A DNA stretch of 64,000 bases, from the NCBI GenBank assembly GCA_903813345.2, contig CAIIXF020000001.1:9773598-9837597 (forward strand), read 5' to 3'. The notes beneath the pieces are model-generated. The model was not told the DNA's origin and made no database searches. It saw nothing but the letters and a program-made list of their open reading frames with translations. Below are positions 2,522 to 18,325 of the stretch, piece by piece. This stretch comes from Owenia fusiformis (lineage: Eukaryota; Annelida; Polychaeta; Sabellida; Oweniidae). Numbering within the stretch: position 1 is the first letter of the stretch; each line of letters begins with the position of its first letter. The position numbers were made by a program, and so were the translations under genes.

Positions 2522-2646
2522 CTAATTGGTCTGCTAATTGTTTACCCCTCTCAGTGGATACAACTCTTTCATCTTCTAGATCACATTTGTTACCAACTAA
2601 CACCACCTGTGCATTATCCCAAGAATATGTCTTGATTTGTGTACAC
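2522..2646 (-). CDS. Rab3: Rab3 alternative exon 3c (canonical G4 segment)
   Basis: 125 nt, acceptor ttgtttctag, donor GTAAGT. It encodes [20 protein letters not shown] then [20 protein letters not shown] and L plus one base, almost identical to the equivalent part of fly and vertebrate Rab3. It is therefore taken as the canonical version. NKCD (134-137) binds guanine. The following exon, which should carry FEFFEASAKDN-like residues, was not found between here and base 1. Confidence 0.93.
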
Positions 2647-5600
2647 CTAGAAACAATACAGAAATAGAGGATGCAGGGGTGACATACATATAGACATCCT
2701 ACCTAGCTGGCTGGCCAGTTGTTTACCGCGCGCTGTCGTGACAACACGGTCCTCTTCACAATCACATTTGTTGCCGACTAGTAGCACCATGGCGCTCTCC
2801 CAGGCATACATCTGGATCTGGGTACACCTGAAACACCAACCCAAGCCTGTGCAAGCTGCACCAAGGATATGCAAGCTGCACCAAGAGTGTGCAAGCTGCA
2901 CCTGTAAGCTGCATGGAGAGTGTCCACCCAATAGGATAAATAGAGGATCACACAGTACAGTGTCCAAAGGTCACAATGTTTGACAAAGCAAGACTTAAAC
3001 ACAGGACCAGTAAGTTTATTTTACAAGTTCTGATGAGGATATTTCATCTTTTGTTTTCCTTAGTAAGTTTCCAATGATCTCATGGAACCAATATTGAATT
3101 CCATGAATCATGAGCTACATATTACTGAAGAAGTAGCATATGATTTCTGTGGCTGTTATCTGGTAGATCAATGATGGGTATAAATGATCTGACATTGAAT
3201 CAGATATCAAACGTTCATTTTGTTGCAATATGAAGCCCTTGGGAAATATACACACTGTACAAATCATATAACTTCACAAGCACAACACAACTTGAACAAT
3301 GGAACAAAACATGCTTCAACGACTGAACATAGGAGGGTACGGGTGGACACGTCCTTGCAGCTTACATTGAAGAAATAATCCTTACACCTGAAAGCCCAGT
3401 AGTAGATTCCTCCACCAGGATAAATAAGCACAGAGTGCTGAAAGATGGCTATTTGATGAGTTTATACCTAATCTATCTGCTAAATCTTGTCCCTGTTTCG
3501 TTGGAACAGCCCTATATTCAGCTTGGTCAGTTTTATTTCCCACAAGTATAACACTGGCATTGTCCCAGGCGTGAGTTTCAATCTGAGAGCTCCTGTTAAG
3601 TCAAAAGCGCATGCAAAAAGATACCACAACATCTTTGAGGGTGCATGTTAAAACAGTATCAAATTTAAAGACCCCATGTAAGGTAAAACGTCATACCAAT
3701 GCATTGCATACATCACATCCAACTCTGTTGTATATTGAAAGAATTAAAAATGGTTGAAAATGAGAAATTAACTCATAATAAGATAGAAAAGATATTTTTT
3801 TTAAATTTTTGTCTTTATTGTGAAACCAAAAGTACAGAAAATATTTAAAACTTGATAGAAAACTCTTTAAAAATTCTGTAACATTTAACGTATGCATAAA
3901 AAATTGATTAAATAGTATAACATTTACTGTCATTTCTAAGTCATCACAAAAAATATTATGATAATTTAACTTCATTTTCAAACTTTACATGAGGCCTTTG
4001 ATAAATTGACATTTTTTACACTGAAGTCTGTATAATTGTTGGTTTAAGTATTAATTTAGAAAAAAATGTTTAGCTAAGCTTTTCATGAGATGCTGTGAAG
4101 CCATGCATGATTCCCAGCATGACCATTTTAAAGATGACCATAAAACATTCATCAATAATTAGGAGTTCAATGTACTCCCTCAATGTTATTTTTCATGAAG
4201 CGTGACATATGTATAGTGTATATAGATATTAGAACCAGAGTACTAGAATCTGCCAGTGTTTTTAATAAGAGTTAGATTTATCCTCATTGTTATTTAAATT
4301 ACGCTGTAAAATTAATAATAAGCATGTATGTTACAGCGTTTATTTCACTGTTGTATGTCTCTAGTATGAAATTGCAAATGTACAGTAAAACGTGTATATG
4401 TAAACACCTCTCTAATACCTAAACAAATAGCTTCAATATGAAGACTTTACAGGGTGTCAAATAAATATGTTTCTCTAGTTTTAATGTGCCAAAGAACAAT
4501 TCAGATATCATGCAGACAAAACAGTTCTGCAACATTGTGGATGTTAAAGCTAAGGGAGAGAACGTATTTATTTGACACCATGTATATGTCAGAATCACAC
4601 TTTAATGTGACCACCTTCATATATGAGCAATGCATATTCTGCTGATTTGAAAGATGTACTTTAAAATATAAAACTTTGAGAACAAGCTTTTGATGAAAAG
4701 TACAGTGGCATTCACTATGAACATGTTTTACTGTATACTGAATGTTACATGTATGATAAAATAAATTGAAGCAAATATTGATTGAATATATGAGTCAGAA
4801 TCATACATAAACATGATAAGGCCTTGATCATTTACAAAATGAAACTTCAATCATTAATTTCTTGTTATTACAGTTATCTGTAAATGCACTGTACATATAT
4901 GTTTCTGTATCAATTAAACTTGAGGCAATCCAATTATCTCTCTCAAATTTGTAAGACATATTCACTTTTCTCTCACATTAGTAAACATGTATGGGGGAGA
5001 AACGAGTAGTATATACTCTGATGAAAACACGGTGCCCAAGTAAAGCTGCGCGCCTACTTAGGCGCGCAGTTTGTTTCGATCACAAACTGCGTGCCTAAGA
5101 ACATTGGATCATTTAAGTTGGAGTCTGTATTTTGAAACGTTATTTAAAGACATTTATCCTGCATTGTTTTCTTGTTCAATGCGCTCATTCTGTGGCGAAT
5201 ATACGAATCTTGCAAATACTAGCAAAAACTGTGTGCAAATGAATCTTAGTTTTAAAACATAAGCAGATTAATGGCATTTTCGTCACTGATTTAATTTATA
5301 CGTAAATCGATGTAGCACTTTAAACATAAATGACAAATACTTTAGACTCGTTTTTTATTTAATTCCTTACACATTTATCATGTTTAATTCAAAATATTTC
5401 GAGATAAAACAGATAATCAGGAGATTAAAAAGAAATAATAAACCACAAACTGCGCGCCTATTTTAGCCAGAAATTACAATCTGTGCGCATACACTATTAA
5501 AACTACATAATCATTGGAATTTCTACAGAGGTACGTGTAGGTGTTTTCGATGTAGCTTTGGAAATTTTGCTTTATGGTCAGATTTTATGAGATTTTCATA

Positions 5601-8600: not shown

Positions 8601-11600
8601 AGTATTTCGAGGGTTCAACCAGAATAACAGCTAGATTTTTGAAGATTTCTGATGACTCTTCCATATCATTTTCCTATTAAGAATTCAGTGAAAAAAGGTT
8701 TGCATTATATAACATTATTCATGTTTGATTTGATTTGACTGGGTAGCTCTATCAGTGTAAAAACTGGTATTATGAATTACAATAATTTACAATAGCAAAA
8801 TGCCAGATTAAGGGCTTCAAGCTTGGCCTGGTAGTTGGTCTTTCAAACCTGTCCACACATGATGCCAGAATTGCAACCCTACTCCTGCACTTAAGGAATC
8901 TAAGTTAATTAGTCGAATTACTCATCTGACTCAGCCTACATTGAGGAAGATCTTCCAAATCCCAAAACGTCTTGATAAGAGGACAAGTTAACAAAACACA
9001 ATCATTAAAATATATATTTTGTAAGTACTAATATGGAGTGGGAGATAGTGTTAATAATATTGCCATAGATTTCATGATATCAACAATGTAATAATCTAAG
9101 TAGAAGCAGATGGGACTTTCAGATTTCCACCTCCGTATCTACCTACAAAATTCCTCCGTTAAATCATAAGTGAAACCTGAATTATATTCAGATTACGACA
9201 ATAATCAAATATAAATTAATTGACGTATGTTGAATACTCAACAGGAAATCCTGTATATAAATAATAATAAAATAAAAATAATATTTAAAGATGTCATTGT
9301 TATTAGATATTTCCTGTGATGTCTCAAAGGGAAGGATTAATTTTCTTTCTAGAATAGAAACTTGAAAACACTGAAAGTTCGTCATTTTCGCCGCATTTTA
9401 TATCAAGACTCCCATATTTGTTACATCAGATAGCTTCACTTTATTGATAAACAAGGATCTGAATTTCCACAATGTTTTTGAATCCTGTACTTTTCAGGAT
9501 GATGAACGGTATGTTAAATTATGATTCATCATATTTTGCATAATAGAGCAGTACATGTACATGTATCAGCTATATGATAACAAATTGCTCATTTACATGT
9601 TTTTATAGTAGCAACATACTTATTACAGCTGTTGCATTTAAACAACAGATATTTTTGCAGCTTTCAGAGTTTTTTAAGCAAGCAATGACCAATAATAAGC
9701 ATGCTTATTTACTACAATATAATATCATGTTATGTATGACTCTATATAGAATATAGTTATATATGTGTCTTTTATGAGAATATTAAAATGATTTGTCACG
9801 TCTTTGAGTAAAGGTTAGTCATATCATTGAGAACTGAAGGGCAATATTGTTAGTTAGGGCAATATACGGTTCTGGATTCAGACATTTGTGCGTACTTAAA
9901 AGAAATAAAAATTATATGTGCTATATGTATGTGGTATATTCAATCTCAGATATTATGAAGAAGATTAGTTTACAAGGTGCCAAGAACCATTCCAAATGAA
10001 ACCGGTAAACCTTGTATTATCCACATAAAAATTAAACACAAGGAAAATTGATATGTTCCTTGATCCAAACAATATAAAACCAAAAACAAATTAAGTACAA
10101 ATACATTATTGAATTTTACACTATTTTTTAAGAATTTCTTATTTTGTAAAACATTTTCACTGGCAAATATGTTTTGTACTTATGACCCCTATGCCACATT
10201 ATTGACTTCCTTGGACGTAATACTGTCAGTGATATGAATTTATGGAATGATTAATTCTGATACTGGCCTTGTTTGGGACCAATGTAGCGGGAAAAACGAG
10301 AAAGACATGTCTACCTAATCAGATCATGTGATCAATAAGTAGACGTCAGTGGAAGAAAAACACCATAGATCAATATAAGAAGTCAAAACGATAACTTGAG
10401 AAAGTTGGAACATTCCGTATTTTGTCAACCACAGAGAGAAACTTTATTTTTCTCCAATATATTTGGTCCCATAGTAATGTATACCTACCAATCTTGAACT
10501 GCATTAAAAGATTCTTCATTGGTAACATCATACATGAGTATAAATCCCATAGCACCCCTGTAGTAAGCTGTAGTTATGGTCCTGTACCTCTCTTGGCCTG
10601 CTGTGTCCTGTAACACAAAACAAAAATGTTACCATGGTTTTGGAAGTACAGTTAAATCTGTCAGATGGAACACCTCTCTGTAGGAAACATCACTCTTAAT
10701 AGAACAGTTTTGAAACTAGGCATTAACATGCAAACACCAAATGCTGAACACCAACCACCAAACACAAATACCAGCTGCGGAACACCAAAAGCCACCACAA
10801 AAAAAGTTGGAAACTATTACAAATATGTCACCACTTGTGGTGATGACATAATGAACCAAATCAGCGCTCTTTGTGGGATTTAAGTGTAATTTTAAGTCTT
10901 GTGAATTATTAGAGGAGCACTTTGATAATATGAATTATTTGGAGGTAATGCAACACAGGGGTTTCAATGTGGGAAGAGCAATGCAAGTCTAATTGCATTC
11001 TGGTATGCCAGAGCCCCTCATATCTGCCGTTCACTTTGGAAGGATAAAGACAAAGGGGGCGAGGCTATCACAATGATCTAATTGACTCTAATTGAAAAAA
11101 GTAATGGCCCATTTCATTCATATGAGGCAGTCACATAAACAACGCACCTGTAAACTAAATGTAGATCACCTTGACTCTATCATTAAAGCAGATATGAAAT
11201 GGTATTTTTAACCTAAAAGGAGTCAATATAATTTTTTGATAGATGTATTTGGACATGTTTTCTCATCAGTAGTGTGGAAATTATTTTACTCTAACGATCG
11301 TTATTAGCTGCTTAATAAGCAATATTCGAATTGGTTGTGACTTTATTGGCCCCCACGTGATCTCTCACTGGTCCCCACATGGCCTGTTTTGGTCCATTGG
11401 ATCATGACGTCATAATGCCGAAATGTTTTGTTATTAGTTTACACAACAATCCTATGGTTGCCGTGACGTTGTGATTACTAAGAAACCAATAAACCAAAGC
11501 TATATTTTGTATATGACGTTACTAATCACGTGGGGGCCAATTTGATTAATCAGTTAGTTTTATTTCGTTATCTATGACCGTTAGCAGTTATCCTTTAAAG

Positions 11601-17600: not shown

Positions 17601-18325
17601 AGTACTCATATTACATGAAAAACATAGTCTTGACATTCTGATATCACATCTCTTGTTTACAGAAAACTAATATCTGATTAAACTTAATGTAACTCCCACA
17701 TTGAAATCAAGGTAACATATTTTGTGATAGTTAACAAAAGCTAGCAATGGCTAGGCCCGGATCTTATATAATCTTACAGAACCACAATAGTCCTGGTTCA
17801 ATTTTTGCTTGACCTGCTAGTTGGTATGAAGCAACTCACTACATAGGGTTTAAATCTGTTGGCCAAGTTTCGAATAAAAGGTTCATAAATTGATCTGGCA
17901 AAATATAGCATGGGTTACAGATACTGCAATTCAGAAATGCTCAAATAATGTATATATCCATCCATGATGAAATCAATTTTCTCTTATTTGTAATCTACAT
18001 GTACATTACATGAAGTGTAGTACTGTAAATTTATACAGAATTCAAATTAACAGAACAAGATAAAAAGTGCTTATATAAATTTAAAAATTACGGTACTTAC
18101 CCATATTTGTAATTTTACTCGTTTATCCTGTCGGAATACTGTTTTTACTTTGAAGTCAATACCAACAGTGCTTACAAATGCTGATGTAAAAGAGTCATCC
18201 GCATATCGAAATAAAAATGATGTTTTTCCAACGCTAGAATTTCCTATGATGAGTAGTTTGAACATATAGTCAAAGTTCTGGTCTGCAGCATCCTTCTGCC
18301 ATTTACTGTCGTTAGCGGAAGCCAT
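2522..18325 (-). CDS. Rab3: Rab3 small GTPase gene, 5' part (5 exons in window, 3 of them alternatives)
   Basis: Spliced gene for a Rab3-type GTPase, which cycles between GTP and GDP on secretory and synaptic vesicles and controls docking and release. Visible coding exons in transcript order are 18325-18101, 10607-10489, then one of 3592-3468, 2827-2703 or 2646-2522. They join in frame: residues 1-75, 76-114 plus split W115, then about 42 residues. Motifs: P-loop GNSSVGKT (28-35), switch I around T53 in STVGIDF, DTAGQE (76-81), NKCD (134-137 in the canonical version). The N-terminus [20 protein letters not shown] matches invertebrate Rab3. The C-terminal part (SAK motif, hypervariable tail, prenylated cysteines) is not in the window and should lie left of base 1. 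Introns of 7.5 kb and 7 kb are full of transposable elements. Confidence 0.95.
2703..2827 (-). CDS. Rab3: Rab3 alternative exon 3b (variant G4 segment)
   Basis: 125 nt, acceptor ggtgtttcag, donor GTAGGA. It encodes [20 protein letters not shown] then [20 protein letters not shown] and L plus one base. G4 box NKCD is intact. It differs from exon 3c mainly at IQMYAWES (IKTYSWDN in 3c) and [17 protein letters not shown] ([17 protein letters not shown] in 3c). It is noticeably richer in GC than the surrounding DNA. It lies only 56 nt upstream of exon 3c. Confidence 0.9.
2848..2914. repeat. 18-bp minisatellite upstream of exon 3b
   Basis: About 3.5 imperfect copies of GTGCAAGCTGCACCAAGA. It sits 20-85 nt upstream of the exon 3b acceptor on the minus strand, where branch point and acceptor choice are made; read on that strand each unit gives GTGCAGCTTGCA, with extra AG dinucleotides. 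Confidence 0.8.
3468..3592 (-). CDS. Rab3: Rab3 alternative exon 3a (divergent G4 segment)
   Basis: 125 nt, acceptor cttaacag, donor GTATAA (weaker than those of its two sisters). It completes W115 and encodes [20 protein letters not shown] then [20 protein letters not shown] and L plus one base. The G4 box is NKTD, still usable for guanine recognition. Relative to the canonical copy, CTQIKTYS becomes SSQIETHA and [13 protein letters not shown] becomes [13 protein letters not shown]. There is no stop or frameshift and the length is identical, so it looks like a maintained coding exon rather than a decayed copy. First in transcript order. Confidence 0.85.
4383..4733. mobile_element. Non-autonomous pogo/Tc1-like element
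   Basis: Ends CAGTAAAACGTGT and ACATGTTTTACTG are inverted and flanked by TA (4381-4382, 4734-4735), the target duplication of Tc1/mariner/pogo elements. The interior has a second inverted pair, GTGTCAAATAAATA near 4456 and TATTTATTTGACAC near 4565-4580. No transposase is present; 351 bp. Confidence 0.65.
5827..6893. mobile_element. Mariner-family transposon, decayed
   Basis: Perfect 42-bp terminal inverted repeats (5827-5868 and 6852-6893) starting CGAGGGTTGTCCCAGAAGTA and flanked by TA on both sides. The sequence resembles known mariner ends. At 1,067 bp it is shorter than a full mariner (about 1.3 kb), and only a transposase fragment remains. It sits inside the GCGCGCC element, so it is the younger insertion. 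Confidence 0.85.
6216..6431 (-). pseudogene. Mariner transposase N-terminal remnant
   Basis: A 71-residue open frame reads in part [20 protein letters not shown] then [20 protein letters not shown], which matches the second helix-turn-helix and following linker of mariner transposases (pattern ...TV.RW..RFK.G...DD..SGRP). The DDD catalytic domain is absent and the frame ends after about 71 residues, whereas mariner transposases have about 345. It lies between the inverted ends of the 5827-6893 element, so context supports the call. Not functional. Confidence 0.6.
7560..8210. repeat. Degenerate short tandem repeats (about 20 bp)
   Basis: Phrases such as TTGAGTTCAATCTAAATAA, CCAATTTGAATGTCTTGA, CAATGTGAATAACCGGAG and CCATGTGAATAACAATTT recur at intervals of roughly 20-25 bases. 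Units are too diverged to give a sharp period; it reads as an old minisatellite interrupted in the middle. Confidence 0.45.
10489..10607 (-). CDS. Rab3: Rab3 coding exon 2 (G3 DTAGQE, switch II)
   Basis: 119 nt, acceptor ttacag at its right side and donor GTAGGT at its left. It encodes [20 protein letters not shown] followed by [19 protein letters not shown] and the first two bases of W115. All switch II residues, including the Q80 equivalent of the catalytic glutamine, are present. It is in phase with each of the three downstream alternative exons, all of which begin with the G completing W115. Confidence 0.95.
10723..10855. mobile_element. GTGACAT MITE copy
   Basis: Starts GGCATTAACATGCAAA, runs through CCAAC/CCAAA-rich sequence, then AAAAAGTTGGAAACTATTAC and ATGTCACCACTTGTGGTG. 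One of at least eight copies in this window. Confidence 0.6.
11183..12114. mobile_element. Large foldback element with TTAA ends
   Basis: Two arms of about 410 bp (11183-11592 and 11706-12114) are near-perfect inverted copies separated by a 113-bp spacer. The outer ends read TTAAAGCAGATATGAAATGG and its reverse complement. TTAA at both tips may be a target duplication as in piggyBac-type elements, or part of the repeat. There is no coding capacity. Arms contain CACGTG and GACGTCAT/GACGCCAT motifs. Confidence 0.85.
12400..12542. mobile_element. Short palindromic MITE
   Basis: Perfect 20-bp inverted ends TAATGCTGTGGTCACATTTG (12400-12419) and its complement (12523-12542), beginning and ending with TA. 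A second inverted pair, CCAGCCAATGAGTATTTT and AAAATACTCATCGGCTGG, lies inside. Non-coding. Confidence 0.8.
14944..17041. mobile_element. Mutator-like element, non-autonomous
   Basis: Perfect 36-bp terminal inverted repeats (14944-14979 and 17006-17041) starting GGTTATAATGAAAACACGCG, flanked on both sides by ATTCAAATC (14935-14943, 17042-17050), a 9-bp target duplication typical of Mutator-like elements. The ends carry clustered CGCGCTACGCGCTAACGCGC motifs, very unlike the AT-rich surroundings. No transposase was recognised in the 2.1-kb interior, which holds a nested GCCCGTAGCCAG palindrome. Confidence 0.8.
16138..16258. mobile_element. GCCCGTAGCCAG palindromic MITE, nested
   Basis: GGCCCGTAGCCAGAGGGGGA at the left and AGCTGGCTACGGGC at the right are inverted, with an inner GAGGGGGAG / CTCCCCCTC pair. 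Inserted in the Mutator-like element. Confidence 0.6.
18101..18325 (-). CDS. Rab3: Rab3 coding exon 1 (P-loop and switch I)
   Basis: Codons 1-75, from ATG at 18325-18323 to the W of KLQIW, followed by donor GTAAGT (18100-18095). The sequence just before the ATG reads tctatttttcag, a good splice acceptor ending exactly at the start codon, so the 5' UTR is probably on one or more separate exons further right that I could not place. An upstream in-frame ATG at about 18370 would add residues unlike any Rab and is read as intron. The exon holds GNSSVGKT (phosphate binding) and the effector loop [10 protein letters not shown], both intact. Confidence 0.95.

Follow-up and report, generated by a model that had tools for sequence, protein, structure and literature searches.

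Regulated secretion has one of its central switches in Rab3, the switch protein of synaptic vesicles, and in vertebrates the task of choosing its partners is carried out by four Rab3 genes. The minus strand of a 64-kb stretch of the Owenia fusiformis genome (64,000 nucleotides, hereafter the window) carries most of a Rab3 gene, comprising coding exons 1 and 2 and three exons of 125 nt, designated a, b and c. The locus raises the question of whether a single Rab3 gene may yield several Rab3 proteins by taking one of three versions of an internal exon at a time and, if so, how old these versions are and which part of the protein they would alter.

Organisation of the Rab3 gene and its reading frames

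Coding exon 1 (positions 18101..18325, minus strand, as for all the features of the gene given below; 225 nt, 75 codons, MASANDSKW...LQIW) was located by tblastn and a check of its donor, TGG/GTAAGT. Coding exon 2 (10489..10607; 119 nt; ...VQDW) has TG as its last bases and the donor TTG/GTAGGT. Exon a (3468..3592; NKTD), belonging to the THAW type described below, is followed by exon b (2703..2827; QMYAWESAM type, NKCD) and by the canonical Rab3 exon c (2522..2646; TYSWDNAQ, NKCD). The terminal coding exon (C1:9773420-9773230; acceptor CAG/GTTTAG) lies in the adjoining contig DNA, 177 bases past the end of the window. The initial annotation had described three 125-nt units in a Rab3 gene, each with an AG acceptor and a GT donor, and these were confirmed; each unit completes W115, leaves one base and encodes 41 full residues with an intact NKxD box. 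The donors become stronger in the order a, b, c (5/9, 6/9 and 8/9 matches to the consensus), and among the acceptors that of c has the best pyrimidine tract (16/20, as compared to 10/20 in b).

The assignment to Rab3 was borne out. The whole protein is closest to Rab3 among the named Rabs, the best solved chains being fly Rab-3 and mammalian Rab-3C and 3B, and the best database rows for the canonical protein are Rab-3 (among the matches listed, the best 120 of 7999). The nucleotide-binding boxes are intact, including SAK and the NKxD of all three versions, and the tail is of the CxC type with the end CQC. The protein encoded by exons 1 and 2 is identical to that of Littorina, Haliotis, Lingula and one further row among the rows compared. 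A search of the genome with exon b found exactly three places, namely a, b and c, at E <= 0.001, with all 14 candidates scored, and on the basis of this search Rab3 is taken to be single-copy in the genome.

Translation of the spliced frames indicates that a alone, b alone or c alone, joined to the terminal exon, gives an intact Rab3 of 219 aa. Skipping of all three exons gives 119 aa, while joining any two of them, or all three, gives 172 aa, with an early stop that precedes the last junction by 75 nt for a pair and by 200 nt for the triple. A stop well upstream of the last junction usually marks an mRNA for decay. As had been argued from the exon length, one or four copies keep the frame and none, two or three break it, and the reading of three phase-matched tandem copies, one used at a time, stands as the best one.

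Searches for tRNA genes and Rfam families in the 64-kb window found none, and a Pfam scan of six other open frames in it gave no family at E <= 0.001. At 1417-1477, in the intron after exon c, two arms of 18 nt (89% complementary) flank a loop of 25 nt, and this inverted repeat may be a small mobile element.

Constraint on the copies and ancestry of exons a and b

The copies are adjacent, of the same length and phase, and share 20 to 28 of 41 residues. Any two of them show 39 to 59 differences in 123 bases, which rules out a duplication introduced by the assembly. Synonymous differences (pS) are saturated, at 1.07 for a-b, 0.98 for a-c and 0.78 for b-c, and non-synonymous differences (pN) are far below them, at 0.32, 0.27 and 0.19, respectively. 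When neutral drift of exon c was simulated until it had as many base differences as observed, under a simple model (one lineage, uniform sites, half transitions), 722 of 5000 runs for a and 908 of 5000 for b were free of stops, and an open frame alone is therefore weak evidence. No run of 5000 was both open and as similar in protein to c as exon a is, and none was so for exon b. Chance open frames are thus ruled out by the protein similarity in these runs and not by the stop-free frame alone.

That a and b might not be Rab3 exons but pieces of a processed copy or of a different Rab gene is highly improbable, and nothing was found in favour of it. Among solved structures the best matches of both are Rab3 chains, with Rab11, Rab12 and Rab27 behind them; both end exactly at their own exon boundaries and phase, and no further copy was found in the genome at E <= 0.001 with exon b as the query. 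An origin from another Rab gene was rejected on the basis of the Rab3 matches and the genome search.

For comparison with other species, the best 120 of 7999 matches to the canonical protein and two proteins from a search with exon b (122 proteins) were examined. They yielded 124 NKxD segments, three proteins holding two segments each and one (P0122, which reads NKCE) giving none. Three of these were set aside, namely the second copy in each of two rotifer models and P0092, in which there is a deletion, leaving 121 reference segments. Among these matches 110 segments are canonical and 11 belong to a type defined in this analysis by H122, A/G123, S/C128 and a common branch, and called THAW. The THAW rows come from nine named molluscs (Nucella, first copy; Littorina; Pomacea; Batillaria; Patella; Pecten; Ylistrum; Saccostrea; Haliotis), a scallop-like row (P0112) and the brachiopod Lingula; the sample is ranked by a canonical query and says nothing on THAW exons in other phyla. 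H122 and S or C128 each occur in 11 of the 11 THAW segments and A123 in ten of them, as against none of the 110 canonical segments for any of the three (among the matches listed). Names of six THAW rows (Pomacea, Pecten, Ylistrum, Saccostrea, Haliotis and Lingula) include 'isoform X2' or 'X3', and by these names the THAW exon is one that annotation pipelines have already met.

Exon a falls within the THAW type by both diagnostic residues and branch. It has H122, A123, S128, K147, Q150 and D151 in common with THAW members, keeps the canonical D125, and scores +18.7 in profile log-odds (THAW rows left out singly, 6.1 to 38.0; canonical segments, -62.4 to -28.3). It groups with the 11 THAW rows with support of 97/96 in a 94-row tree and of 94/94 in a 37-row tree, where the branch is not starred, with the caveats that the tree has 42 columns, that its bootstrap had not settled and that the branch of exon a is long. 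A direct protein search with exon a gave no match. Taken together, the residues, the profile and the trees show, at the level of sequence, that exon a and the THAW exons elsewhere share ancestry. Exon a is accordingly an old exon type, most economically dated to before the split of molluscs and brachiopods.

The gene context of the THAW segments was also considered. A terminal exon of the usual type directly follows the THAW exon in nine of the 11 rows, while P0082 (Pomacea) departs from it at this point. The gene model of Nucella (P0003) joins a THAW and then a canonical exon into one protein via a short linker, in the same order as in Owenia; as a predicted model it shows the neighbourhood and the order of the two exons, not their exclusivity. 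Among the matches listed, database rows of other species hold a single THAW or a single canonical exon, the exceptions being the Nucella and the rotifer models. P0112 has an uninterrupted frame of 219 aa, and its contig does not exceed 4173 nt, which, with introns as long as those of the present gene, suggests a spliced transcript; its source is marked 'lgn', which is taken to denote assembled reads. It had been proposed beforehand, as a test, that the copies in related species should be intact, without stops or frameshifts, and this holds for the exon a type in the molluscs and the brachiopod.

The bdelloid rotifer models P0004 (Didymodactylos) and P0005 (Adineta) each carry two tandem copies of the Rab3 segment, none of them THAW, perhaps through an independent duplication of the same exon.

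Exon a could nevertheless be a decaying copy in the Owenia lineage, of a type that is used elsewhere. It has the longest branch in the THAW group (0.52) and the weakest donor of the three, and at T117 and K120 it departs from nearly all the reference rows. Against this, it keeps ten of the ten columns invariant in all 121 reference segments, its frame is open with NKTD intact, and its non-synonymous difference is much below the synonymous one; decay of exon a is considered improbable. Rab3 proteins are likely to be made from both a and c.

The status of exon b is less clear-cut. It is nearest to the canonical exons (best, 31 of 43 residues), and its log-odds score of -7.0 lies between the THAW and the canonical groups. 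Of the THAW diagnostic residues it carries A123 only. It reads E-S in place of D125-N126, thereby keeping nine of the ten invariant columns; N126 is found in every one of the 121 reference segments and b alone changes it. The trees leave b unplaced, and a grouping of b with a and the THAW rows is not rejected (p-AU 0.306). Third-position GC is 0.61 in b as against 0.27 in c. No b-specific match was seen among the 124 segments (from the best 120 of 7999 matches and two more), and a direct search with exon b retrieved two proteins only, both of the canonical type.

These features could be accounted for by a two-way switch with a relic, in which a and c are the two functional versions, as they would be in molluscs and Lingula, and b is decaying or rarely used. 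The absence of a b-like row from this sample and the alteration of N126 are in favour of it, as are the pyrimidine tract at the acceptor of b, the poorest of the three, and a tandem repeat of 20 nt in 2.7 copies (2850..2902, minus strand) just upstream of the exon near that acceptor. However, the frame, the NKCD box and both splice dinucleotides of b are intact, its divergence from c (pS 0.78, saturated; pN 0.19) was matched by no neutral run of 5000, and b-like proteins may lie beyond the best 120 of 7999 matches to a canonical query. Exon b is intact and, judged by the saturation of its synonymous sites, old. We regard the relic as unlikely, and favour a cassette with three working exons, for which we infer that a and b are used in O. 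fusiformis.

Splicing and the effector loop

The weaker signals of a and b fit an arrangement with c as the default exon and a and b under regulation, or a weakening of a and b. A motif scan for regulators was also performed, and only a TGCATG (3610..3615, minus strand) just upstream of the acceptor of exon a stood out. It is the Rbfox-type motif and, being one of six in the 18.7-kb gene, provides a weak lead.

The b-c intron (2647..2702, minus strand) is 56 nt long, and its sole TnAy branch-point candidate has its A 23 nt from the donor. It is shorter than all 40 Ras-family exon gaps in the genome (smallest 117, median 695 nt), which are gaps between matches, not measured introns, obtained from 125 of 153 Ras-family matches. 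In human genes, according to a survey (PMC5740500), a distance of under 50 nt from donor to branch point is a sign of steric interference, found in 57 mutually exclusive clusters (9%), and exons not divisible by three occur in 377 (60%). Exclusivity in the present gene is probably of two layers, one steric (b versus c) and one of frame (a versus b or c). The 56-nt intron would be too short for splicing in both b and c, and inclusion of a with either of the others would bring in the early stop and should yield an unstable mRNA. The a-b intron measures 640 nt, so that no steric block would operate between a and b and only the frame rule or regulators could separate them. Each mRNA would carry a single one of the three versions, placed between exon 2 and the terminal exon.

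The numbering of fly Rab3 can be used unchanged for the protein (ungapped match to 4rkf). RabCDR2 of fly Rab3 is the alpha3-beta5 loop including W124-D125-N126, which was mutated as a rabphilin contact (PMC4552854). Three RabCDRs of Rab3A contact rabphilin-3A (1ZBD), and RabSF3 overlaps RabCDR2 (PMC9308819). With the secondary structure placed from these papers and the known Rab fold, the exon spans RabCDR2 and the G4 box and omits both switches. The initial annotation had assigned the alternative region to the G4 segment; this part stands, and the region is wider than G4 alone, RabCDR2 being spanned as well. The choice of exon would alter residues 116-157, which run from the end of helix 3 through RabCDR2, beta 5 and the NKxD box into the beginning of the following helix, and would leave the N-terminus, the P-loop, switch I, switch II and the prenylated tail untouched. 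With NKxD intact, GTP binding is expected to persist, while the loop facing rabphilin and other effectors would be rewritten. Splicing would then set the choice or the strength of partners with GTP binding kept.

It is probable, as far as genomic sequence can tell, that this is a lophotrochozoan single-copy Rab3 gene with a cassette of three tandem, mutually exclusive exons that change the effector loop. A wider reading is put forward tentatively, as possible but doubtful: a three-way selector of Rab3 effectors, arisen by tandem exon duplication, of which at least the THAW arm would go back to the common ancestor of molluscs and brachiopods, by which neurons or secretory cells would pick vesicle partners through splicing.

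Molluscs, Aplysia among them, have long served as classic models in the study of synaptic plasticity. If the reading is true, an old exon that rewrites the effector loop of Rab3 would mean that the vesicle-release machinery is partly set by splicing in molluscs and a brachiopod. Natural isoforms that differ at RabCDR2 and keep both switches would also offer a direct test of the role of RabCDR2. In the fly, the WDN124-126AAA mutant gave full rescue of active-zone protein distribution (PMC4552854), so that CDR2 is dispensable for that distribution. This counts against a choice of partners by splicing, and the tolerance of changes sharpens the question of what RabCDR2 does.

Comparison with known systems

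No report of tandem Rab3 exons was found in the literature searched, with subscription papers mostly outside it. RAB6A is a known Rab gene with a mutually exclusive pair of exons, and RAB6A and RAB6A' differ at a few positions near switch II. The pair is given as a substitution event common to human and mouse in PMC1950890. The mammalian pair and the present cassette are alike in that a Rab GTPase gene carries homologous alternative exons, one per mRNA. They differ in that the RAB6A pair lies near switch II, whereas Rab3 here has three versions of the exon, sharing 20 to 28 of 41 residues, in the RabCDR2/G4 region. The two exclusion rules counted among the human mutually exclusive clusters, frame and a short distance from donor to branch point, are those that may act here, and no Rab is named in the text of that survey available (PMC5740500).

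Outside the window, a Rab26-like gene (C9:22044758-22062655; L034, L035; Rab-26, 2g6b, as the best match among solved structures) contains two switch-II exons that are homologous and separated by 7.7 kb. Each is of about 67 nt by eye, with the donors CAGG/GTAGGT and CAGG/GTACTA, and they may be a second mutually exclusive pair among the Rab genes of the genome. At C7:5263859-5264472, two Ras-family matches 287 nt apart overlap in model positions (14-53 and 14-81), and may be a duplicated exon or an unrelated pair.

Among the closest counterparts are the THAW isoforms of the molluscs and Lingula. These are known from database rows, no third copy was seen in those rows, and no paper on them was found in the literature searched. 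They concern the same gene and the same 42-residue segment and carry the same diagnostic residues as exon a, and in Nucella the THAW exon precedes the canonical one within one gene model, as it does in the Rab3 gene of Owenia.
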